NCBI GenBank assembly: GCA_027019175.1
Contig: JALUXB010000032.1
Span: forward strand, 1-63,300
Length of the DNA: 63,300 bases
From: Sulfurovum sp.
Lineage (GTDB): Bacteria; Campylobacterota; Campylobacteria; Campylobacterales; Sulfurovaceae
Direction of reading: 5' to 3'
Under the pieces are notes generated by a model. The model searched no databases. It worked only from the letters and a program-made list of their open reading frames with translations, and was not told the DNA's origin. Shown here piece after piece: positions 10,475-39,305 of the stretch (position 1 is the first letter of the stretch; each line of letters starts with the position of its first letter). The position numbers and the translations under genes were made by a program.

Positions 10475-11024
10475 GGATAATCCCCTTGGCTTTTTCGTGG
10501 CCCTGGTAGGCGGCTTTTCGGCACCACTCAATGGCTTTTTCTTTGTCCTCTTCACAACCGAGCCCAAGGTCGTAAAGCGCACCAAGGTTGAACTGTGCAG
10601 AGGCATTGCCTGCTTCAGCAGCCTTTTTGAAAAGAATAAAGGCTTTTCTTGGATCTTGTTCTACACCCCGTCCCTCTTTGTACATGGCGCCAAGGTTGTT
10701 GAACGCTTCAATGTTGCCGCGTTTGGCCGCTTCTTCATACCAGAAGGCTGCTTCGGAAAAGTTCTGTTCACAGCCGTCACCGTTTTCGAGCATCAGCGCC
10801 ACTTCAAACTGTGCCAGAGGCACTTCACGGGTTGCTGCTTCAAGGTAGTTCGCAAAGGCTTTCTTATCATCCTTTTCCACACCCAAACCTCTGAAGTAAA
10901 GAAACCCGAGATAGTAGAAACTTGTCGGCTCTTTCTGCTCGGCCAGGGCAGAGTAGAGCACAAAGGCTTTGTCGTATTCTTTTGCCAATAGTGTGTTGTA
11001 GGCTTCCTGTACTTGTGCTTGCAT
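10440..11024 (-). CDS. Sel1-like tetratricopeptide repeat protein
   Basis: A 194-aa protein starting at ATG 11024, one base after the valS stop (TAAGATG). It consists of about five Sel1 repeats with the consensus A...LG.LY..G.GVE.D..KA: ALMLENGDGCEQNFSEA, LGAMYKEGRGVEQDPRKA and LGALYDLGLGCEEDKEKA are the clearest. Sel1 proteins are solenoid scaffolds for protein-protein contact. No signal peptide is visible. It is co-transcribed downstream of valS. Its last residues lie inside a duplicated 54-base palindromic repeat. Confidence 0.85.
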   Translation of the reverse strand: MQAQVQEAYNTLLAKEYDKAFVLYSALAEQKEPTSFYYLGFLYFRGLGVEKDDKKAFANYLEAATREVPLAQFEVALMLENGDGCEQNFSEAAFWYEEAAKRGNIEAFNNLGAMYKEGRGVEQDPRKAFILFKKAAEAGNASAQFNLGALYDLGLGCEEDKEKAIEWCRKAAYQGHEKAKGIIQRMQQDGQIVF

Positions 11025-29304: not shown

Positions 29305-30399
29305 CTATATCTCCCCTTGCAGAAAATGCTCAAATACCTGTGTAACCAGCGCAATGCGCTCCTCAAAACTCTTTTTACTCGCTCTCTCATGCACCGTGTG
29401 ATCGCCGTCACCGTAAGGGCCCCAGCCGTCAAGGGTAGGAACGCCCTCTGACGCGATGATGTTCGCATCGCTTACACCACCGCGTTTTTCGGTAGGAAGG
29501 GCAGTGTTGCAAAGGGTTTCTATCTTTTTTACAAAAGCTGCCTGCTCGGGAGTAGGCTGCATCACATCACGCTGGATGCCGCCGGAGAGTTTGGACTCTG
29601 TTCCCTCGACATAAGAGGTATTGACGATCTCATCGATGGCTTCAAGAACCCTGTCTCGCTCGTCGGTGGTGGTATAGCGCAGTTCGAAGGTAAGTTTCGC
29701 TTTGGGCGAGATGGTGTTGGCACCGATGCCACCCTCTATTTTGCCGACATTGACGGTGGTCTGCTTTTCAAGGTCGGTCAGGGCAACAAGTTTTTGCAGT
29801 TTAATCGCCGCTTCGAGATTGGCATCTGCCCCCTTGTCGTAGTGGTTTCCCGCATGCGCAGCGATGCCCTCAATATCGATGAAGAAGGTACCTACCCCCT
29901 TGCGCCCGATGACTACTTCATCGTGTATACCTGCCGCTTCAAACACCATGCAGTAGTCATACGCCTTTGCCAGTTTGGCCGAGAGGTGTTTGCTGTCATC
30001 ACTGCCGGTCTCTTCATCGCTGACAAGCAGGAAGTCGATGTTGTGGATTGCTCCAAGCTTTTTATGGACGTTGCGGAGTGCCTGGAGAGCAACGTAGTTG
30101 CCCCCTTTCATATCACACACCCCCGGACCGTATATCCATTCGTCATCCTCTTTGAATGTTTCGAAAGTACCCGGAGGGAAAACGGTATCCAGATGTCCGA
30201 GCAGCAGCAGCTTTTTACCCTCTTTTTGGGAAGCAGCAAGGTGCAGGTGGTCTCCAATCTCTTCTCTGGGATATCGTGTAAGTGTATAATCAAGTTCTTC
30301 TAACCAATAGGCAAAAATTTCGCCGTTTTCATCGACACCTTCCTTATTTTTTGTCCATGAGTTGATCTCGATGATCTTTTTAAGTTCGTTAAAGTCCAT
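29305..30399 (-). CDS. M20-family zinc peptidase (carboxypeptidase G2-like)
   Basis: A 364-aa protein without a signal peptide. Metal ligands are visible in LLLGHLDTVFP, GPGVCDMKGGN and VSDEETGSDDS, with a late histidine in GDGDHTVHERA; the lid domain has IEGIAAHAGNHYDKGADAN. The CPG2 subgroup removes C-terminal glutamate from folates or peptides, and related enzymes process other N-acyl amino acids. It is divergent from the two ATP-grasp ligases. An amidohydrolase opposite two amide ligases is suggestive of a shared substrate. Confidence 0.85.
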   Translation of the reverse strand: MDFNELKKIIEINSWTKNKEGVDENGEIFAYWLEELDYTLTRYPREEIGDHLHLAASQKEGKKLLLLGHLDTVFPPGTFETFKEDDEWIYGPGVCDMKGGNYVALQALRNVHKKLGAIHNIDFLLVSDEETGSDDSKHLSAKLAKAYDYCMVFEAAGIHDEVVIGRKGVGTFFIDIEGIAAHAGNHYDKGADANLEAAIKLQKLVALTDLEKQTTVNVGKIEGGIGANTISPKAKLTFELRYTTTDERDRVLEAIDEIVNTSYVEGTESKLSGGIQRDVMQPTPEQAAFVKKIETLCNTALPTEKRGGVSDANIIASEGVPTLDGWGPYGDGDHTVHERASKKSFEERIALVTQVFEHFLQGEI

Positions 30400-30502
30400 A
30401 CTGCCGCTGCCTTCTCTTAAATGTTGTGATTTTGTTATGATTCTCTGAAGATATTTTAATAAAATATAGTAAAATAAGAGATTAAATTACAAGGATGGTC
30501 GA

Positions 30503-31414
30503 ATGGGTAGAAAGATCGGAATGTGGATGTATAAAAACGGCGGCGGTGACAAGATAGAGCAAAAAATGGTAAAAAAGCTCAAAGAGCGCGGTATCGAAAC
30601 GGTAACCGATCTCAATCTGCGTCATGCTGTAGCCAAGAAGGGGCATATTTATCACGGCAAACGCAAAGTCGACAAACTCGATCTATTCTTCTCCTACAAC
30701 GCCGGCGAACAGACACAGTACCAGGTCTTTTTGTACCAGGCACTTGCACGCGTTATCCCGACTGTCAACTCTTACGAAGCGTTCGCGTTGACCGAAGACA
30801 AATTCCAGACCTCCTATCTGCTGCAGCAAAACGGTGTAGCCACACCGGAGTTTCAACTCTGCCACAGAGACGATACAGAGCATCTTCAGCGTATTATGAA
30901 AAAATGGAAAAAAATGGTCTATAAGCCGACCGACGGCTGGGGCGGTGTAGGGCTTACAAAAATAGAGAATGAAGAAACACTCAATATGCTGCTTCCCTTC
31001 CTCAACCAGACCGACCTGCGCTTCTTCTACGTCGAAAAGTTCGTCGAGTATGACAATACCGACTTCCGTGTCGATATTGTAGACGGAAAGTTTGTCGGAT
31101 GCTACGGCAGAAAAGCGAGCAAAAGCGACTGGCGCACCAACGTCACAAGCGGCGGTTCGGTCTTCAAACGCGAGCCAAACGACGAGATTATCGAACTTGC
31201 GATCAAGGCAGCCAAGGTGTGCGGTACGGACATTGCCGGAGTGGACATCATCTACGATCTTGAACGAGAGAAGTATGTGGTACTGGAAGTCAATGGCATT
31301 CCGGCCTTTGCAACACCGGAGCAGGAGAAGATGGGACTGGACTTCAACGATCTCAAGATCGACCTTATTGTTGACCTGATCGACCGCAAGACAAAGAAGA
31401 AAAAGAAAAAGTAG
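30503..31414 (+). CDS. RimK-type ATP-grasp ligase
   Basis: A 303-aa protein with AAGGA upstream. The pre-ATP-grasp half (residues 1-100) is followed by the ATP-grasp fold: K141 in VYKPTDGWGGVGL, DFRVDIVDGKFVGCYGRKAS, and E262-V-N264 in VLEVNGIPAF, the usual Mg2+ ligand pair. These enzymes join a carboxylate to an amine via acyl-phosphate; RimK relatives add glutamate to peptides or proteins. Substrate is unknown. The C-terminus is a run of lysines. A second ATP-grasp gene follows 60 bases downstream. Confidence 0.82.
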   Translation: MGRKIGMWMYKNGGGDKIEQKMVKKLKERGIETVTDLNLRHAVAKKGHIYHGKRKVDKLDLFFSYNAGEQTQYQVFLYQALARVIPTVNSYEAFALTEDKFQTSYLLQQNGVATPEFQLCHRDDTEHLQRIMKKWKKMVYKPTDGWGGVGLTKIENEETLNMLLPFLNQTDLRFFYVEKFVEYDNTDFRVDIVDGKFVGCYGRKASKSDWRTNVTSGGSVFKREPNDEIIELAIKAAKVCGTDIAGVDIIYDLEREKYVVLEVNGIPAFATPEQEKMGLDFNDLKIDLIVDLIDRKTKKKKKK

Positions 31415-31474
31415 ACGTCTAACAGCTGCAAAGAGACGTCAGGAACAAAAAACACTAAACAAAAAGGGGACACC

Positions 31475-32905
31475 ATGGCAAAAAAGAACAAACAGCAAAA
31501 ACTACCAAAACTCGGATTGCTCTATCTTGACCACGTATTGAGATTTTTCGACAAAAGTAACTTCAGAGGCTGGCCTGACAAAATAGAGACTGTCGTCTAC
31601 CATTGGAAGAACGACAAAGACCGCTTCATCAGAGAAGTCAAACGCAAAAAAATCGACGTACTCATCGGAAACATTCCCGCTACTGCATATGAAACGTTCC
31701 GTGAAATTGCAAGAGAACTGCCGCATGTACAGTTCATTCCGTCACTCGATACGCAGTTTGCCAACAAATCCAAAGAAAATGTAACCCGTTTTGCCTGGAA
31801 ATATAACATCCCTGTGCCCAAAACCTATATTTTCTACGACAGAGAAAAGGGAATGAAATTCATCGAAGAGACAACGTACCCAAAAATCATCAAAAAAAGT
31901 TACGGTCCCTCCAACTACGGCGGATACTTTGTCCACAAGGTAGACTCTGCCAAAGAGGCCAAAGAGCTGCTTGAGAAGAAAAAGTACAACCCCATCTATA
32001 TGCAGGACTTCGTCCCTATGGAAGCGGATGTGCGCGTAATGCTCATTGGCCACAAACCGGTGTGTGCCTTCTGGAGACGTCCGCCCAAGGGTGAGTGGCT
32101 GACCAATACAAGCCAGGGCGGGAGCATGGACTATATGGATGTGCCAAAAGAGCTGCTTGACCTTGCTGTCAAAGTTTCCAAAGCAGCCAATGCCGAGTAC
32201 TGGGCATGTGACGTAGCAGTAGGCGAAGACGGCAAATACCGCATTCTCGAATGTGCAACGGCATTTGCGGCATTTCCGTATATTCGTGACTGGATCGGGC
32301 AGTACCTGATGTGGAAATTCTCCAACGGACGTTTCCCTCTGCCGAACATTCCACTTTACAACTGGGAAGAGCTTGGCAAGATGGATGCAAGTGTGCTGCG
32401 TACTCTTCGCTACATTACCTTTGGGCGATACACACCAAGCTACGACGGTGCTTTCTTCCTTGACAAGAAGACCAAAGAGACGGAAGAGGGTGAAATGTAC
32501 CTGCATGAGCTTGACAGCCTTTACCCCATGCTCAACACTTATACCAGAACCAAAGAAGAGTGGCCAAGCGAAAAGTGGAATTTCCAGGACAATTACGGCA
32601 AAACCATTGAGAAGGTAAGTGCAAAGAAAAACCCCAAATATGACGATGACGATGAGGGGGCTCAGAGTGAAGCACAGGAGAACATTATTGAACTTTCCGA
32701 GAAAAAGGTGAAAAAACTGCTTACATCCGTCGAGGGAATCGGAGAGAAGAAGGCAGAAAAGATCATGAAAAAATTCGACACCGCTGAACTCGTACATGCC
32801 CTTGAAACTGCTCCTGAAAAAATTGGGGAAGAGTTCTCCTGGTTCAAGGAAAAATTCACCAAAAGACTGCTTAAAGAGTGGAAATCATTCAAAGATAAGC
32901 TCTAA
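31475..32905 (+). CDS. ATP-grasp ligase fused to a C-terminal helix-hairpin-helix domain
   Basis: A 476-aa protein with AAAAGGGGA upstream. ATP-grasp landmarks are IIKKSYGPSNYGGYFV, ADVRVMLIGHKPVCAFWRR and ILECATAFAAF. The last keeps Glu259, but Cys-Ala replaces the usual hydrophobic-Asn pair, so metal binding may differ. After about 75 residues and an acidic linker (DDDDEGAQSEAQ), residues about 405-455 form a helix-hairpin-helix (SVEGIGEKKAEKIMKKF). HhH domains normally bind DNA backbone, rare on an ATP-grasp enzyme. It probably works with the ATP-grasp protein encoded upstream. Confidence 0.78.
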   Translation: MAKKNKQQKLPKLGLLYLDHVLRFFDKSNFRGWPDKIETVVYHWKNDKDRFIREVKRKKIDVLIGNIPATAYETFREIARELPHVQFIPSLDTQFANKSKENVTRFAWKYNIPVPKTYIFYDREKGMKFIEETTYPKIIKKSYGPSNYGGYFVHKVDSAKEAKELLEKKKYNPIYMQDFVPMEADVRVMLIGHKPVCAFWRRPPKGEWLTNTSQGGSMDYMDVPKELLDLAVKVSKAANAEYWACDVAVGEDGKYRILECATAFAAFPYIRDWIGQYLMWKFSNGRFPLPNIPLYNWEELGKMDASVLRTLRYITFGRYTPSYDGAFFLDKKTKETEEGEMYLHELDSLYPMLNTYTRTKEEWPSEKWNFQDNYGKTIEKVSAKKNPKYDDDDEGAQSEAQENIIELSEKKVKKLLTSVEGIGEKKAEKIMKKFDTAELVHALETAPEKIGEEFSWFKEKFTKRLLKEWKSFKDKL

Positions 32906-32930
32906 AGGTGTACACTTCGCCGATTTTTTC

Positions 32931-32973
32931 TTCTGCAACCCAGCTTCCGGGTGCAGAGAAAGAACCCTTTTTT
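32931..32973 (+). terminator. Possible terminator between the ATP-grasp and M14 genes
   Basis: TTCTGCAACCC (32931-32941) pairs with GGGTGCAGAGAA (32949-32960) with a small bulge, around a 7-base loop, and a run of six T follows at 32968-32973. The T run is 7 bases away from the stem, so it may only attenuate transcription into the M14 gene. Confidence 0.45.
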
Positions 32974-33005
32974 ATTCCAAACCACTACCGTAAAGGCTGC
33001 TAACG

Positions 33006-35585
33006 ATGAAGAACCAGTATATGTCTTATCAGGAGAGTCTTGACTTTCTGCACAGAATGGAAAAAGAGTATCCTGACCTGATAGAAGTCATCAAGATCGG
33101 TACGACATACGAGGGGCGTGACATTGTCCTGGCCAAAATCTCCAAAGAGGTTGAAAAGGCAGATGAGAAACCGGCACTGCTCTACACCGGTACGATCCAT
33201 GCCCGAGAATGGATCGGTCATGAACTTGCACTGGAGTTCATTAAACATGTGGCTGAAAACCAGGATGTCAACCCCGTACTTGAAAAGGCACTTCAAGAGT
33301 CGACACTCTACATGGTACCCTGTCTCAACCCGGACGGATATGAATATTCCCGAAAACACTTCTCTTTCTGGCGTAAAAACCGTAGAAAGAACCATGACGG
33401 TACTGTTGGTGTCGACTTGAACCGCAACTTTTCCATCGGATTTAAAAAGATCAGTAACACATCCTCCAATGTCTACGGGGGCGAAGAGCCCTTTTCCGAA
33501 GCCGAAACACGCGCTATCAAAACGTTTGTCGATGCACATGAAAATATCACCATTGCGCTGGACTACCACTCTCAGGGGAACGTTTTTTTCCCGGCACACA
33601 AGTTCAAACATGAAGCGGAAATCGACGGGACAGATATGAATGTCATTGCTGCAAACATGAATGATGAGATCGAAAAGATTACCGGACGCCGCTACGGTAT
33701 CCACCGCGGCAAACCGCCTGCGGCACTCATCAGCGGAAGCGGACGGGAGTACTATTATTCCCGAGGCATCAAGGCACTGGTGGTGGAAGTAGGGACAAAG
33801 AATATCCCAGACTATATGAAAAGTATGAGCAGCAGTGTACACGAAAATATTCCCGCACTCATCCGCACCTTCTCCGAAGTGGTCAACTTTTCAGAGTATG
33901 CACCGCGCCGTGTAGATGAATTCAGTGTAGAGTCAGTCTCCGATACAAGCGTAACACTGGTGTGGAAATATGAAAAACGTGACGATATTTTCTTTGAAAT
34001 TTACCGCAGCACCAAGGACAAAGATGCCTGTGACGAGCGTACAAGAGTAGGGATCGCGGGGGATCACACGTTTACCGACACCGACCTGGAGAGTTCAACG
34101 AACTACAATTACACCATTCGTGCCGTCAGCAAAAAAAGTGGTTACAAATCGGCATTTGCTCCCGTTGTCAAAGCGCGTACAGCATTGGCTGAAGATGAGT
34201 TCTTCCGTTTTCTCTTTGCAACCAAAGAGGGTACAGGCTATGTGGGGCAATACACACAGGAGACCAACCGCGCACACTTTGGGAACAACTCACTCTTTGT
34301 GGGCATTAACAAGTCCAAAGGTATCTGCGACTCGGTTGTCAGTTTCGACCTCAGCTCCATTCCGGACAATGCCGTCATCAAATCGGCACGCTTCTATCTC
34401 TACCCGATGAACCGTGTGGGCGCAAAAATCGAAAAGTTCGGGCAGTGGGACCTCAGTCTGCTTGAACACGGCAGTTTTAGTGAGATCAGCGACTTCAACG
34501 AGATAGAAAACGCCAAAGCAAAGGGAATCATCGGCCAGGCGATCAAGTCGCGTCAGCTGACACAGGGCATCTGGAACTTTTGGGAGTTTTCGCAGCGTGA
34601 GTGCCAGCTGCTTGAAGAGGAGATCGCCAGTAAGCAGGCTGTATTCCGCATCGACGGCCCAAAGTACCTCCCTGACGGTGAAGATAGCCAGATGATGCAG
34701 TTTGATATTGGATATGGCAAGTTTGGCGGCGGCATCCACTACCGCCCGATGCTTGATATCAAGTACACCATCGAAAATGAAAAAATCAAGCTGCCGACTC
34801 AGGAGAGAGCGACCATCGCGCGAGAGGGTGTAGAGGAAAATGTGCTCAAAAGCGGCTTCGACAGTGAGGGCAACAAGGTCTACGGCTATCTGAATTTCGA
34901 CCTTTCCAAACTTCCCGAGCATGAGAAGACGATGATCATCCAGTGTGCGCTGCGAATTCGCAATAAAAATACGTTCAAAAAGAAGTCCGATGTACGTTTC
35001 TATGTCGAGCTGGTCGAGCTTGACGAGGTAGGCACCTACGAAGATATCAAAAACCGTGAAAAGATCGAATACATCGGTTACGAAGTGGCCGAAAGCGATC
35101 TTAATGCCAAAGAGTATCAGTATTTCAATTTTGATACGCTCTCCAAACAGGTGCTCGACCAAATGCACCAGGAGGGCAAAACCCTCAAGCTGGTCATCAA
35201 ACCAACCTCTGCACTGGGGGCTAAAAACCGTATTACCGAATGGGCAGATGATGCCGAACTGGTGGTCAAGTACATTCCAAAACGCCGTCATCCGGTCGCA
35301 CCTGTCGAGCATGTTCAGATAAGCAAAGAGAAAAAAATGATCAAATTGACCTGGAACAAAGTTGATGACGAAGCACTCAAAGGCTACTATGTCGTACGTA
35401 ACAGTTTCCATCCTCCACGCCACTTTATGGACGGGGTGAAACTCTATGGAGGCAAAGATACCTGGACATACGACAACTTCGGATCGTTCGACAAAGAAAA
35501 ATACTATGCAGTATTTACCTATGACGATGTACCCAACTTCTCAGAAGCAACTGTGGTACGTTACGATCCTCTGGAGAAGTATTGA
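33006..35585 (+). CDS. M14 zinc carboxypeptidase with FN3 and DNRLRE-like domains, no signal peptide
   Basis: An 859-aa protein starting MKNQYMSYQESLDFLHRME. The M14 catalytic domain spans about 1-298: H65 and E68 in IHAREWIGHE, VDLNRNF, H188 in DYHSQG and the general base E261 in VVEVGT. A fibronectin-III-like domain (about 303-390), two DNRLRE-type beta domains (about 392-770) and a second FN3-like domain follow. Such modules are usually extracellular, but no signal peptide is visible, so localisation is unclear. It should release C-terminal amino acids. It is the third gene after two ATP-grasp ligases. Confidence 0.8.
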   Translation: MKNQYMSYQESLDFLHRMEKEYPDLIEVIKIGTTYEGRDIVLAKISKEVEKADEKPALLYTGTIHAREWIGHELALEFIKHVAENQDVNPVLEKALQESTLYMVPCLNPDGYEYSRKHFSFWRKNRRKNHDGTVGVDLNRNFSIGFKKISNTSSNVYGGEEPFSEAETRAIKTFVDAHENITIALDYHSQGNVFFPAHKFKHEAEIDGTDMNVIAANMNDEIEKITGRRYGIHRGKPPAALISGSGREYYYSRGIKALVVEVGTKNIPDYMKSMSSSVHENIPALIRTFSEVVNFSEYAPRRVDEFSVESVSDTSVTLVWKYEKRDDIFFEIYRSTKDKDACDERTRVGIAGDHTFTDTDLESSTNYNYTIRAVSKKSGYKSAFAPVVKARTALAEDEFFRFLFATKEGTGYVGQYTQETNRAHFGNNSLFVGINKSKGICDSVVSFDLSSIPDNAVIKSARFYLYPMNRVGAKIEKFGQWDLSLLEHGSFSEISDFNEIENAKAKGIIGQAIKSRQLTQGIWNFWEFSQRECQLLEEEIASKQAVFRIDGPKYLPDGEDSQMMQFDIGYGKFGGGIHYRPMLDIKYTIENEKIKLPTQERATIAREGVEENVLKSGFDSEGNKVYGYLNFDLSKLPEHEKTMIIQCALRIRNKNTFKKKSDVRFYVELVELDEVGTYEDIKNREKIEYIGYEVAESDLNAKEYQYFNFDTLSKQVLDQMHQEGKTLKLVIKPTSALGAKNRITEWADDAELVVKYIPKRRHPVAPVEHVQISKEKKMIKLTWNKVDDEALKGYYVVRNSFHPPRHFMDGVKLYGGKDTWTYDNFGSFDKEKYYAVFTYDDVPNFSEATVVRYDPLEKY

Positions 35586-35722: not shown

Positions 35723-36769
35723 ATGCAGACACAGAGCTACGAAAGCCTTTTGGCAGAAAATGAACATTTAAAACATTTGATCTTTCAGTTTAAAAACCTG
35801 CTTGATTCCATCCCTGATCCTGTTTTTATGAAAGATGAACATTTGCGATGGATCTATGGAAACCCTGTTATTTTAAACCTATACAACATTGACAAAGACA
35901 ATTATGTCGGCAAAACCGAAGACCAGCTTCTTCCAGAAGAGTTTGCCGAATCCTGTATGGAGAGCGACAGGAAGGCGGTTGCAAAAGGAAGTATCAGCAA
36001 ATCCGAAGAGTGTGCACGTGATCCTGAAGGCAAACTTCATTTTTATGAAGTATTCAAAGTGCCCTCCTATCATCATGAGACCGGCGCATTTACCGGACTG
36101 ATCGGTGTGGGAAGGGATATTACCGAACGCAAGGAAGCGCAGGAGGCACTTGAAGCAGAAAACAAAAAACGCAGAGCGAATGAAATACAGCTTGCCCACT
36201 TGACAAAAACACTTGAGGAACAGGTACACAAACGTACAGCGGAACTTGAGGCAGAAAAGGCCAGTGCGCTTAACCTGTCCTACATAGATACGCTGACAGG
36301 ACTCAATAACCGACGTGCCTTTTTTGAAAAAAGCTATGTCATTGACATCAATGCACGCAACCGCAATTGCGGCTATGCGGTTATCATTTTTGACATTGAC
36401 TATTTCAAACAGGTCAATGATACCTATGGACATGCCGTAGGCGATGTTGTGCTGAAGCAAAGTGCAAATGTTATCAAAGCAAATTTAAGGGCTACCGATA
36501 TTGAGGGACGTATCGGCGGGGAAGAGTTTGCAGTCACACTCGTGGATACTTCGCTGGAGCAGGCAATGAAGATAGGCAAAAAGATCTGTGAAAAGATTGC
36601 ACAAACCCCCATGGGCACACATGCCATCAATGTCACATGCAGCTGCGGAGCAAGTACCTATCACCCAGAGGCAGAAACATTTGAGGCAGTCCTTGCCAAA
36701 GCGGATGAAGCACTGTATTCGGCAAAAGCATCCGGAAGGAACCAGGTTTCCGGTAAAGCATTTATTTAA
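35723..36769 (+). CDS. PAS-GGDEF diguanylate cyclase
   Basis: A 348-aa soluble protein with AAAGGTGG upstream. A PAS domain (about 20-135: SIPDPVFMKDEHLRWIYGNP to GVGRDITERKEAQ) is followed by a coiled-coil linker (about 136-185) and a GGDEF domain with G265-G-E-E-F269. FDIDYFKQVNDTYGHAVGD is intact. It should make c-di-GMP in response to a PAS signal. It lies alone downstream of a very AT-rich intergenic stretch (35625-35672) and is followed by a strong terminator. Confidence 0.9.
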   Translation: MQTQSYESLLAENEHLKHLIFQFKNLLDSIPDPVFMKDEHLRWIYGNPVILNLYNIDKDNYVGKTEDQLLPEEFAESCMESDRKAVAKGSISKSEECARDPEGKLHFYEVFKVPSYHHETGAFTGLIGVGRDITERKEAQEALEAENKKRRANEIQLAHLTKTLEEQVHKRTAELEAEKASALNLSYIDTLTGLNNRRAFFEKSYVIDINARNRNCGYAVIIFDIDYFKQVNDTYGHAVGDVVLKQSANVIKANLRATDIEGRIGGEEFAVTLVDTSLEQAMKIGKKICEKIAQTPMGTHAINVTCSCGASTYHPEAETFEAVLAKADEALYSAKASGRNQVSGKAFI

Positions 36770-36817: not shown

Positions 36818-38224
36818 ATGATGAACGAAAAACCGACACTCAAATCGCTGCTTGAAACTTCTGCAGGCAAAAAGCTGCTGCTGCTTGGCAAAGAACAGAT
36901 ATTTACCCAAAAAGAGATTGCCCGTTTTTTAAAACGTTTTAAAGTCACACCGGTGAAATACCTTGAAGAGGGAGTCGTCGGCGTGATTGAAAACCACCGG
37001 CTCAACCCTGTTGAAGAGGATATTTCCAACGAGGCATATGAACAGAAACTGCCTATTTACAAACTGAGTGTGTTCGAACAGCTTCTTTCAGAAGAGATAG
37101 ACGACGATGCACTCCTAATGGCGATCAAACTTGGCAACGACCAGGAACGCATAGTGCGGCTGCTTGGCAACGAACATCTCAGCAATGCACTCTTTGTACG
37201 CCTATTGAAACTCTACACCTTTCATACTGAGGAGGAGGACAACAGGCAGGACAGAGATGTCATTATGTTTACGCTGCGCCGCTACATCGATATCAAACCC
37301 AATGAAGAGGATTTGCTCTACAGCTACCTGACACTGCGCCGCCTCGCCACTGAAGCGACTGACCCGGAACTGCTCAAAGCGCTGTTGTATTTTCCCAATT
37401 TCGAATTTCTCATCCGTGGCAGAGAGAAGGTTACCCTGCAGAAGACAATTGCCCGAAACCCGTTTATTGACGAAGAGACGGTACGCAAACTTCTTGCAAC
37501 ACGCAAAGTTGCCGTTGCACGTGCACTGGCAGGAAACAGTGTCATCAGCAATGAAGTGCAGAAATATCTTCTTTCTCAAGATGACGAAGCTATCGATATG
37601 GCGCTTGCTGTCAACAACACCATTGACAAAACAATATTCGATGCGCTCCTGACGCGTGGCAATGAAGCAGTATCGCTTCTTCTCATACATCAGCCCATCG
37701 ATGCCTCACGCTTTGAAAAAGTACGAAAATCCGGCATCGATGCGGAACAGTATGCACTGCTGGGCGCGAATGAAATGCTTGACACAGATGTCATTGAATC
37801 GTTAGCCGCGATGGAAAACAAAGCACTTTGGCAGATGCTTGCCGGCAACAAAACGATTCCTGTTCAAGTACTTGCATCACTGTACGAAAAAGGCGGAAGG
37901 GAAGTGTATCTGGCACTTGCAAAAAATCCGGCTGTGCCGGAAGCCATCCTTGAAAGTCTCTATGAGCGTGCAGCGGATGACACAGAGATGCTTGCCGCAC
38001 TGGCACACAACCCCTCTCTGCCCGAAGCAAAACTGCGTGCGCTTTTTGAACGTGACAATTTCGAGATCAACCGCGGTCTTGCCACCAATGCCGCTCTGCC
38101 GCCTGAGCTGCTCGACGTTCTTAAAATTGACACGCGCCTGCAGAACGAACTGGCACAGAATGAGCAGCTTGCCAAATCTTATGAGGCGGTACTAAAACAA
38201 AACAAAGCAATGATGAATGTCTAA
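36818..38224 (+). CDS. LRV/HEAT-like solenoid repeat protein
   Basis: A 468-aa soluble protein. After an N-terminal alpha/beta part (residues about 1-110) it is a helical solenoid of about 24-residue repeats resembling leucine-rich repeat variant (LRV): the consensus LA.NP..P...L..L is visible in LAKNPAVPEAILESLYERA, LAHNPSLPEAKLRALFERD and LATNAALPPELLDVL. These repeats bind proteins. The next gene is a MoxR-type AAA+ ATPase, so this may be its substrate adaptor or partner. It probably has a leaderless mRNA. Confidence 0.65.
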   Translation: MMNEKPTLKSLLETSAGKKLLLLGKEQIFTQKEIARFLKRFKVTPVKYLEEGVVGVIENHRLNPVEEDISNEAYEQKLPIYKLSVFEQLLSEEIDDDALLMAIKLGNDQERIVRLLGNEHLSNALFVRLLKLYTFHTEEEDNRQDRDVIMFTLRRYIDIKPNEEDLLYSYLTLRRLATEATDPELLKALLYFPNFEFLIRGREKVTLQKTIARNPFIDEETVRKLLATRKVAVARALAGNSVISNEVQKYLLSQDDEAIDMALAVNNTIDKTIFDALLTRGNEAVSLLLIHQPIDASRFEKVRKSGIDAEQYALLGANEMLDTDVIESLAAMENKALWQMLAGNKTIPVQVLASLYEKGGREVYLALAKNPAVPEAILESLYERAADDTEMLAALAHNPSLPEAKLRALFERDNFEINRGLATNAALPPELLDVLKIDTRLQNELAQNEQLAKSYEAVLKQNKAMMNV

Positions 38225-38262
38225 TGAATGAGGAACGTGCAATGAATAACCGAATGAGTAAT

Positions 38263-38286
38263 GTAGGGTGCGTAGCCACGCACCAC
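38263..38286. repeat. GTAGGGTG-type palindrome between the repeat-protein and MoxR genes
   Basis: GGTGCGT (38267-38273) and ACGCACC (38278-38284) form a perfect 7-bp stem within GTAGGGTGCGT...ACGCACCAC. The same motif in the opposite orientation lies after nhaA (13829-13850). It ends just before the MoxR Shine-Dalgarno AAAAGG. Confidence 0.65.
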
Positions 38287-38300
38287 AAAAGGTATACAGA

Positions 38301-39305
38301 ATGAAAGCAAGCAATATTACCAAAGTCATAGACAAACTCATAGAGCGCAAACTGCCGGTATTTGTATGGGGCGCGCCGGGTATCGGAAAGTCCTCTATTG
38401 TCAAGCAGATCGCCGAAAAGAAGAATCTGGATTTTCTTGATCTTCGCCTCTCTCTGCTCGACCCTACTGACCTGAAAGGAATCCCATTCTTCAATGCCGA
38501 AACAAAAGAGGGAGTCTGGGCGAAACCAAGCTTTCTCCCCGGTGATACTGACTCCAGAGGTATTCTTTTTCTTGACGAGATCAACACAGCACCTCCGGCG
38601 GTACAGGCATCTGCCTACCAGCTTATCCTCGATCGCAAAGTAGGGGAGTATGAACTGCCCGAAGGATGGAGCATTGTTGCAGCAGGTAACCGTGAAAATG
38701 ACCGTGGTGTGGTCTACAAGATGCCCCCGCCGCTTGCTAACCGGTTTGTACACTTCGAAATGGAAGTCAATTTTGACGACTGGAAAGCATGGGCCTACCG
38801 CAGCGGCATAGACCACAGCATCATTGGATACCTTGCCTATGACAAAGCAATGCTCTTTACATTTGACCCAACATCCAACGAAAAAGCATTTGCCACCCCA
38901 AGAAGCTGGGAGTATGTCGACAGTATTGTAAAATCGGGTATAGATTCTGATTTAATATTAGATAGTATTAGCGGTGCTGTAGGACGTGAAGCAGCTGTAG
39001 GCTACAGCAGTTTTGTCAAAGTCATGCAACAGTTGCCAGACCTTGCAACAATACTTGACGGCACAATGGACAGATTTGACGAAGAAGATCCGCGCGTATT
39101 GATGGCACTGGCGATTGGGCTCGTCAATGCACTGAGGGAAACCCCCGATGATGATGCTGTTGAGAATGTGCTTGATTTTTCCCAGCAGCTTCCCGGAGAA
39201 TTTGCCATTATGCTTGTCAAAGACTTGCAGCAAAACGGTATCGATGTGGAAGGTTCTGCGGCATGGAGCGACTGGGTACGGAAATTCGCATATCTTCTGG
39301 GGTAA
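38301..39305 (+). CDS. MoxR-type AAA+ ATPase
   Basis: A 334-aa protein starting at ATG 38301 with AAAAGG upstream. Walker A is WGAPGIGKSS and Walker B is ILFLDEIN; sensor region AAGNRENDRG and LANRFVHFEM follow. MoxR ATPases act as chaperones that assemble or activate metalloenzymes and are usually encoded next to a VWA protein. No VWA gene is adjacent; the neighbour is the LRV-like repeat protein. A palindrome sits between the two genes but they may still be co-transcribed. Confidence 0.85.
   Translation: MKASNITKVIDKLIERKLPVFVWGAPGIGKSSIVKQIAEKKNLDFLDLRLSLLDPTDLKGIPFFNAETKEGVWAKPSFLPGDTDSRGILFLDEINTAPPAVQASAYQLILDRKVGEYELPEGWSIVAAGNRENDRGVVYKMPPPLANRFVHFEMEVNFDDWKAWAYRSGIDHSIIGYLAYDKAMLFTFDPTSNEKAFATPRSWEYVDSIVKSGIDSDLILDSISGAVGREAAVGYSSFVKVMQQLPDLATILDGTMDRFDEEDPRVLMALAIGLVNALRETPDDDAVENVLDFSQQLPGEFAIMLVKDLQQNGIDVEGSAAWSDWVRKFAYLLG

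Follow-up and report, generated by a model that had tools for sequence, protein, structure and literature searches.

We have analyzed a set of four genes in a 63,300-nucleotide stretch of Sulfurovum sp. DNA (contig JALUXB010000032.1 of GenBank assembly GCA_027019175.1; the whole stretch is termed the window below). We observed that this set, in which the gene for an M20 metallo-hydrolase is transcribed divergently from the genes for two ATP-grasp proteins, AG1 and AG2, and for a large M14 carboxypeptidase, constitutes a real conserved module, far beyond chance. Its genes, folds, catalytic residues, linkage, co-occurrence and transfer as a unit are matters of observation. From these, we regard the chances as about even that the set is a portable intracellular module that would reversibly extend a carboxyl end with acidic residues, most likely glutamate.

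A species-genome scan retained 80 of 215 loci for neighborhood comparison. Phyla beyond Campylobacterota, to which the window's own 2.2-Mb genome belongs, were sampled only from collections of plasmids, phages and viruses. The four-gene block was present in nearly all of the 80 fetched loci, in surroundings that were otherwise unrelated. Co-occurrence of M20 was read from neighborhoods only, and in most of the fetched loci M20 adjoined other genes of the module; AG1, AG2 and M14 were counted over 397 Campylobacterota genomes, where they were found in 53, 52 and 54 genomes, respectively. All three were present in 51 of these genomes and none in 342; the remaining 4, all drafts, had a partial set. 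The hypergeometric probability of the AG1-AG2 co-occurrence, in a calculation that ignores phylogenetic relatedness, is ~1e-60. In several lineages (e.g. L115, L117, L124), M20 is co-directional with the other genes, which abut or overlap, and the set is therefore an operon there. Five Sulfurimonas-like genomes retain AG2 although it is separated from AG1 and M14 by >0.7 Mb. Also, a complete cassette with overlapping genes, its AG2 being 72% identical, was found in the unrelated marine bacterium Photobacterium sp. DA100 (L126, 9714-16094) between unrelated genes of a 2.1-Mb replicon, at a place where PLSDB annotates no genes; this is a horizontal transfer between phyla. Taken together, the conservation of the block, the all-or-none pattern, the retention of unlinked AG2 and the Photobacterium cassette argue that the set functions as a unit and has passed from one phylum to another. 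Dozens of Campylobacterota species, among them many free-living relatives of Campylobacter and genomes of the Sulfurimonas and Arcobacter types, hold the module almost strictly together, and it has also spread to a relative of Vibrio. The first-pass annotation of this DNA, which had suggested an amino-acid tagging system, had named neighborhood conservation as a check on its proposal; the neighborhood proved to be conserved, and the opposite outcome, on which the proposal would have fallen, did not occur.

An open reading frame (ORF) check of window positions 29305-35585 returned all four genes as full-length ORFs at the coordinates first assigned to them, and their identities were upheld by Pfam, NCBIfam and PDB comparisons (Table 1). 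The arrangement as originally described, a carboxypeptidase G2-like M20 gene divergent from two RimK-type ATP-grasp genes that are followed by a large M14 gene, was thus found in full. Both ATP-grasp proteins score above the 21-bit cut-off of the RimK-like ATP-grasp family PF08443, and M14 above the 34-bit cut-off of DNRLRE. The description of two RimK-type ligases needs amendment in that AG2 is no plain RimK, lacking the Asn of the E-x-N motif and usually carrying helix-hairpin-helix (HhH) modules.

Table 1. Positions of the four module genes, and of selected domains and residues of their products, in the window
Feature	Position	Strand	Basis
M20 metallo-hydrolase, carboxypeptidase G2-like	29305..30399	-	Pfam Peptidase_M20 81.9 bits and M20_dimer; 1cg2, E 1.6e-29
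AG1, RimK-type ATP-grasp ligase, 303 aa	30503..31414	+	Pfam RimK 78.8 bits
AG2, divergent RimK/ArgX-fold ATP-grasp protein, 476 aa	31475..32905	+	Pfam RimK 56.6 bits
AG2 codons 259-262, E-C-A-T replacing the ATP-grasp E-x-N metal motif	32249..32260	+	Sequence alignment
AG2 HhH / S13-H2TH-like module, residues 408-438	32696..32788	+	E 0.001, under the Pfam cut-off in the window protein
M14 carboxypeptidase, 859 aa	33006..35585	+	Pfam Peptidase_M14 193 bits; fn3; NCBIfam DNRLRE 47.2 bits
M14 catalytic domain	33006..33896	+	Pfam/NCBIfam, model secondary structure
M14 Arg247 codon (bovine CPA position 255), predicted specificity residue	33744..33746	+	Alignment to CPA4
M14 fn3 domain	33918..34139	+	Pfam/NCBIfam, model secondary structure
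M14 two DNRLRE-like beta domains after fn3, then fn3-like end		+	Pfam/NCBIfam, model secondary structure

The catalytic domain of M14 has the fold of the CPA4/CPB/CPT/CPO group (Z 32-33), and its zinc ligands and catalytic Glu (H65, E68, H188 and E261), together with R123, N139 and R140, are invariant in 71 sequences. Arg247 is likewise present in 71/71 M14s of the module, and the corresponding residues of three M14s that do not belong to it are Ile, Thr and Thr. In vertebrate M14s, such as carboxypeptidase O, an Arg at CPA position 255 gives specificity for acidic C-terminal residues (PMC9925722). A hydrophobic N-terminus was seen in 0/70 module M14s, for which the maximum Kyte-Doolittle value was 1.23, and is present in the outside M14s of Streptomyces and Rossellomorea (values of 2.25 and 2.56 in two such M14s); the lack of a signal peptide first remarked for the window protein is accordingly a property of its homologues as well. 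Because of the invariant Arg247 and the lack of a hydrophobic N-terminus, we read M14 as putatively cytoplasmic and acid-specific. By its sequence, the enzyme would act in the cytoplasm as a carboxypeptidase on Glu/Asp ends, and it is encoded beside a Glu-type ligase; the acid-predicting Arg in this genetic setting fits an eraser for a glutamate ligase.

The other proteins of the module add to this picture. AG1, and not AG2, keeps the ATP-grasp catalytic residues including E-x-N, and its Lys141, Asp187, Arg189, Asn213, Asp248, Glu262 and Asn264 are invariant in 106/106 sequences. Alignment with E. coli RimK, LysX and MyfB placed Arg189 and Asn264 of AG1 opposite Arg189 and Asn262 of RimK, which contact the final residue of poly-Glu bound by the Pseudomonas enzyme (PMC10092738). 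For M20, which did not reach the cut-off of any named M20 equivalog in NCBIfam, the best solved relative is the glutamate carboxypeptidase G2, and the catalytic and dimerisation domains are both present. The correspondence of AG1 to the Glu-contacting residues of RimK and the relationship of M20 to carboxypeptidase G2 both favor glutamate addition and removal. The predicted structure of AG2 is nearest to ArgX, RimK and LysX (Z ~20), and in our tree AG2 is a separate long and deep branch, the deep branching order being not resolved. The core of AG2 shows extreme conservation, and the linker is variable. The HhH modules that are usually found at the C-terminus vary in type as well, with HHH_5 in 21/30 homologues and a ComEA-like HHH_3 in 7, the latter matching at E 7e-24 in the Arcobacter-type AG2.

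From these properties we infer that the residue is glutamate, which way the cycle runs, and how the labor is divided. AG1 would activate a C-terminal carboxylate with ATP and then ligate Glu to it, in the manner of RimK; AG2 would carry out a second, different ligation, or else present the substrate to AG1. Cytoplasmic M14, with its Arg255-type pocket, would remove the acidic residues again, and M20 is predicted to split off the last residue or to hydrolyze the released peptide. The substrate would be cytoplasmic and its gene unlinked to the cassette, with metallo-carboxypeptidases acting in place of RimB. There are precedents for both halves of such a cycle: the two ATP-grasp proteins MyfA and MyfB build one polyglutamate chain (PMC8141765), and RimB erases tails made by RimK (PMC11957791). 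The intracellular writing and erasing set envisaged in the first-pass annotation is strengthened by the strict co-occurrence, the transfer as a unit, the absence of an M14 signal peptide, and the invariant acid-predicting Arg beside RimK-type ligases; as to what is written upon, protein tagging still stands against a peptide metabolite, a cofactor, or poly-glutamate.

Five observations weigh against the proposed glutamylation cycle. CPA Tyr248 is not retained in the module M14, and confidence in the M14 model is low around the pocket; our specificity assignment therefore relies on sequence alignment. Acceptor-side residues Arg8 and Arg64 of RimK are not conserved in AG1, which has invariant Trp8, Tyr10, Asn12 and Ser64-Tyr65-Asn66 where those Arg residues lie, so that the acceptor of AG1 probably differs from that of RimK. 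The metal-binding Asn of E-x-N, a motif present in every ligase compared (RimK, LysX, MyfB and a phage ligase), is replaced in 112/112 AG2 sequences; because of this replacement, AG2 may not be a second ordinary writer, and may be either a ligase or a substrate-presenting partner. Lastly, substrate searches at the cassette and among named candidates yielded no substrate.

These searches were as follows. Clustering of neighboring ORFs for a small substrate protein or the precursor of a ribosomally synthesized and post-translationally modified peptide (RiPP) returned shadow ORFs of the four genes only, plus, in Sulfurovum, DUF2336 and MoxR genes; the small protein with a conserved C-terminus that was first expected nearby is thus found neither in the cassette nor beside it. 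Ribosomal protein S6 was rejected as a candidate substrate, its C-terminal tails failing to separate module-positive from module-negative genomes: they ended in -EA, in -EE only by chance, or in -KAN in one module-positive genome. The window's own assembly contains two copies of the S6 gene (G000, C50:1322-1588 and C74:33740-34006), which fits its contamination estimate of 4.75%. A LysW carrier was likewise rejected: the genome from which the window comes gave no hit to TIGR01206 at E 0.1. Elongation factor EF-P was considered since in Sulfurimonas-like genomes with a split module AG2 lies 30-90 bp behind efp; its sequences had no fixed difference between module-positive and module-negative genomes, and it too was rejected. 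Loci with AG2 directly behind efp are L157 (6336-8418), L158 (6020-8040), L159 (6103-8180), L161 (5810-7891) and L109 (7372-9422); in L160 (7073-12656) AG2 is three genes from efp, and in another lineage, L168 (4048-9566), an M20-AG1-M14 block lies ~1.2 kb from efp. Because the cassette contains no substrate gene, the substrate would be a protein of wide conservation, or else a peptide or small molecule. The HhH modules of AG2 favor a macromolecular target, and a metabolite or an acidic polymer would agree just as well with the lack of a substrate gene in a cassette that crosses phyla. A more specific version of our proposal, in which AG2 uses its HhH modules to dock on a conserved protein associated with nucleic acids or the ribosome, and a short acidic tail is written on that protein by AG1 and erased by M14 and M20, is a tentative one that we would judge rather unlikely as it stands. 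A protein annotated as "ATP-grasp domain-containing protein" in Nitratiruptor sp. SB155-2 (NIS_RS04835), which could be AG1, AG2 or neither, is up in transcription under both Cd and Cu stress together with chaperones (PMC10092412).

The absence of a substrate gene from a cassette that crosses phyla also suits a metabolite module, in which AG1 and AG2 would build a small soluble peptide or a cofactor tail in two ligations, and M20 and M14 would recycle it. A compatible solute, an antioxidant, or a polyglutamylated cofactor would be examples, and this alternative differs from the glutamylation cycle we prefer only in excluding a protein target. The methylofuran polyglutamate tail is made by two ATP-grasp proteins (PMC8141765), and the top NCBIfam score of AG1, 152 bits, is to the tetrahydromethanopterin glutamate ligase MptN, under the cut-off of 350. 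However, the HhH modules of AG2 and the large conserved extra domains of M14 suggest a macromolecular partner, and no pathway genes recur in the neighborhood; we consider such a module possible though unlikely. We think it improbable that the set instead serves a storage-polymer cycle, in which AG1 and AG2, as a pair of ligase sites like that of cyanophycin synthetase, would make a poly-acidic or alternating polymer, M14 would depolymerize it with its beta domains as binding modules, and M20 would split the products. Two ligases, a depolymerase and a dipeptidase would suit the gene count, and DNRLRE and fn3 domains such as those of M14 are found in secreted enzymes that act on polymers. Poly-alpha-glutamate is a product of E. 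coli RimK, according to Kino et al. 2011 as cited in PMC8141765. Yet typical binding modules are not conserved as strongly over their full length as the extra domains of M14 are, no further gene related to storage is linked to the set, and AG2 lacks the catalytic Asn. A graspetide-type RiPP cluster, with two ATP-grasp proteins cyclizing a precursor that the peptidases mature, would recall the paralogous pair employed for microviridin, the nearness of the AG2 model to the ligase PsnB (7drm) and a weak GRASP_SAV_5884 match (32.6 bits), but is very improbable, since no small ORF recurs in or beside the block, the abutting or overlapping genes of Photobacterium and Arcobacter-type genomes leave no space for a precursor, and MvdC/MvdD scores are far under the cut-offs. 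A phage origin was rejected, with no relative in viral contigs and only distant RimK-type matches in phage records, as was anti-phage defense, the PADLOC models matching none of the four proteins at E 0.01.

Around the module, a consensus scan of the 103-bp AG1/M20 intergenic region for regulatory signals gave nothing convincing. Downstream, at window positions 36818-39305, lie genes for a DUF2336-like protein and a MoxR-type AAA ATPase, neighbors that many Sulfurovum loci share (14 for the former and 9 for the latter) and other lineages do not. The near relative L034, where M14 ends at 10685 and the DUF2336 match begins at 10759, lacks the PAS-GGDEF gene that in the window (35723-36769) separates M14 from the DUF2336 gene; this is a recent gain or loss. 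In the Arcobacter-type genome G175 (L166, 5720-9676), M20, AG1 and AG2 are gone between argG and an intact M14, and a genus-mate (G131; L116, 4593-12174) has all four genes at the same site. This is a natural deletion that left only the presumed eraser.

General links between amidoligases and peptidases were reportedly described by Iyer et al. in Mol BioSyst in 2009. A published account of the exact four-gene set was not found in the literature searched, which did not cover that article, so that prior mention is possible; the general kind of system is known, and this particular set was not found described. By the tests we ran, the module is outside the RimK equivalog, LysX/LysW, graspetide and methylofuran families. 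Against the RimK S6-glutamate ligase equivalog PRK10446, with its cut-off of 331, AG1 scored 58.5 bits and AG2 15.6 bits. Like MyfA and MyfB of methylofuran synthesis, it has two ATP-grasp proteins, one of them RimK-like, that may act on one chain; unlike them, it has two hydrolases and an AG2 without the E-x-N Asn, and no methanopterin- or methylofuran-type genes were among its recurrent neighbors (neighborhoods only were surveyed). With LysX/ArgX, LysW and LysK it shares the combination of a RimK-fold ligase with an M20 hydrolase, and AG2 resembles these ligases in its nearest model, ArgX, and in a W-L/I-T-N motif similar to that of LysX; it differs in having an M14 and no LysW in the genome, and its scores are under the LysX cut-off. 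M14 has the fold and the Arg at CPA position 255 of carboxypeptidase O, but is bacterial, predicted to be cytoplasmic, and longer by ~560 residues, and does not keep CPA Tyr248. Carboxypeptidase G2 is the closest solved relative of M20, which has the M20 dimerisation domain and for which Glu specificity is only predicted.

A close parallel is the RimK-RimB system for polyglutamylation of Pseudomonas RpsF, which also is intracellular, accessory and horizontally mobile, with a ligase genetically linked to a remover of acidic residues. In contrast to that system, the erasers here would be M14 and M20 metalloenzymes rather than a retropepsin, there are two ligase-fold proteins, the AG1 acceptor-side residues differ, and S6 tails give no support for S6 as the target; as judged from linkage only, no RimB is encoded in the cassette neighborhood, where the linked hydrolases are M20 and M14. 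Writing and erasing of tails by RimK-type systems are known in very few bacterial cases, the erasers described being RimB-type proteases, and the residue-level prediction of an acid-specific M14 makes directly testable the question of what is written and erased. Were the target a nucleic-acid- or ribosome-associated protein, its reversible glutamylation would parallel, in bacteria, the tubulin glutamylase/deglutamylase cycle, which employs TTLL enzymes and M14-type CCP carboxypeptidases.

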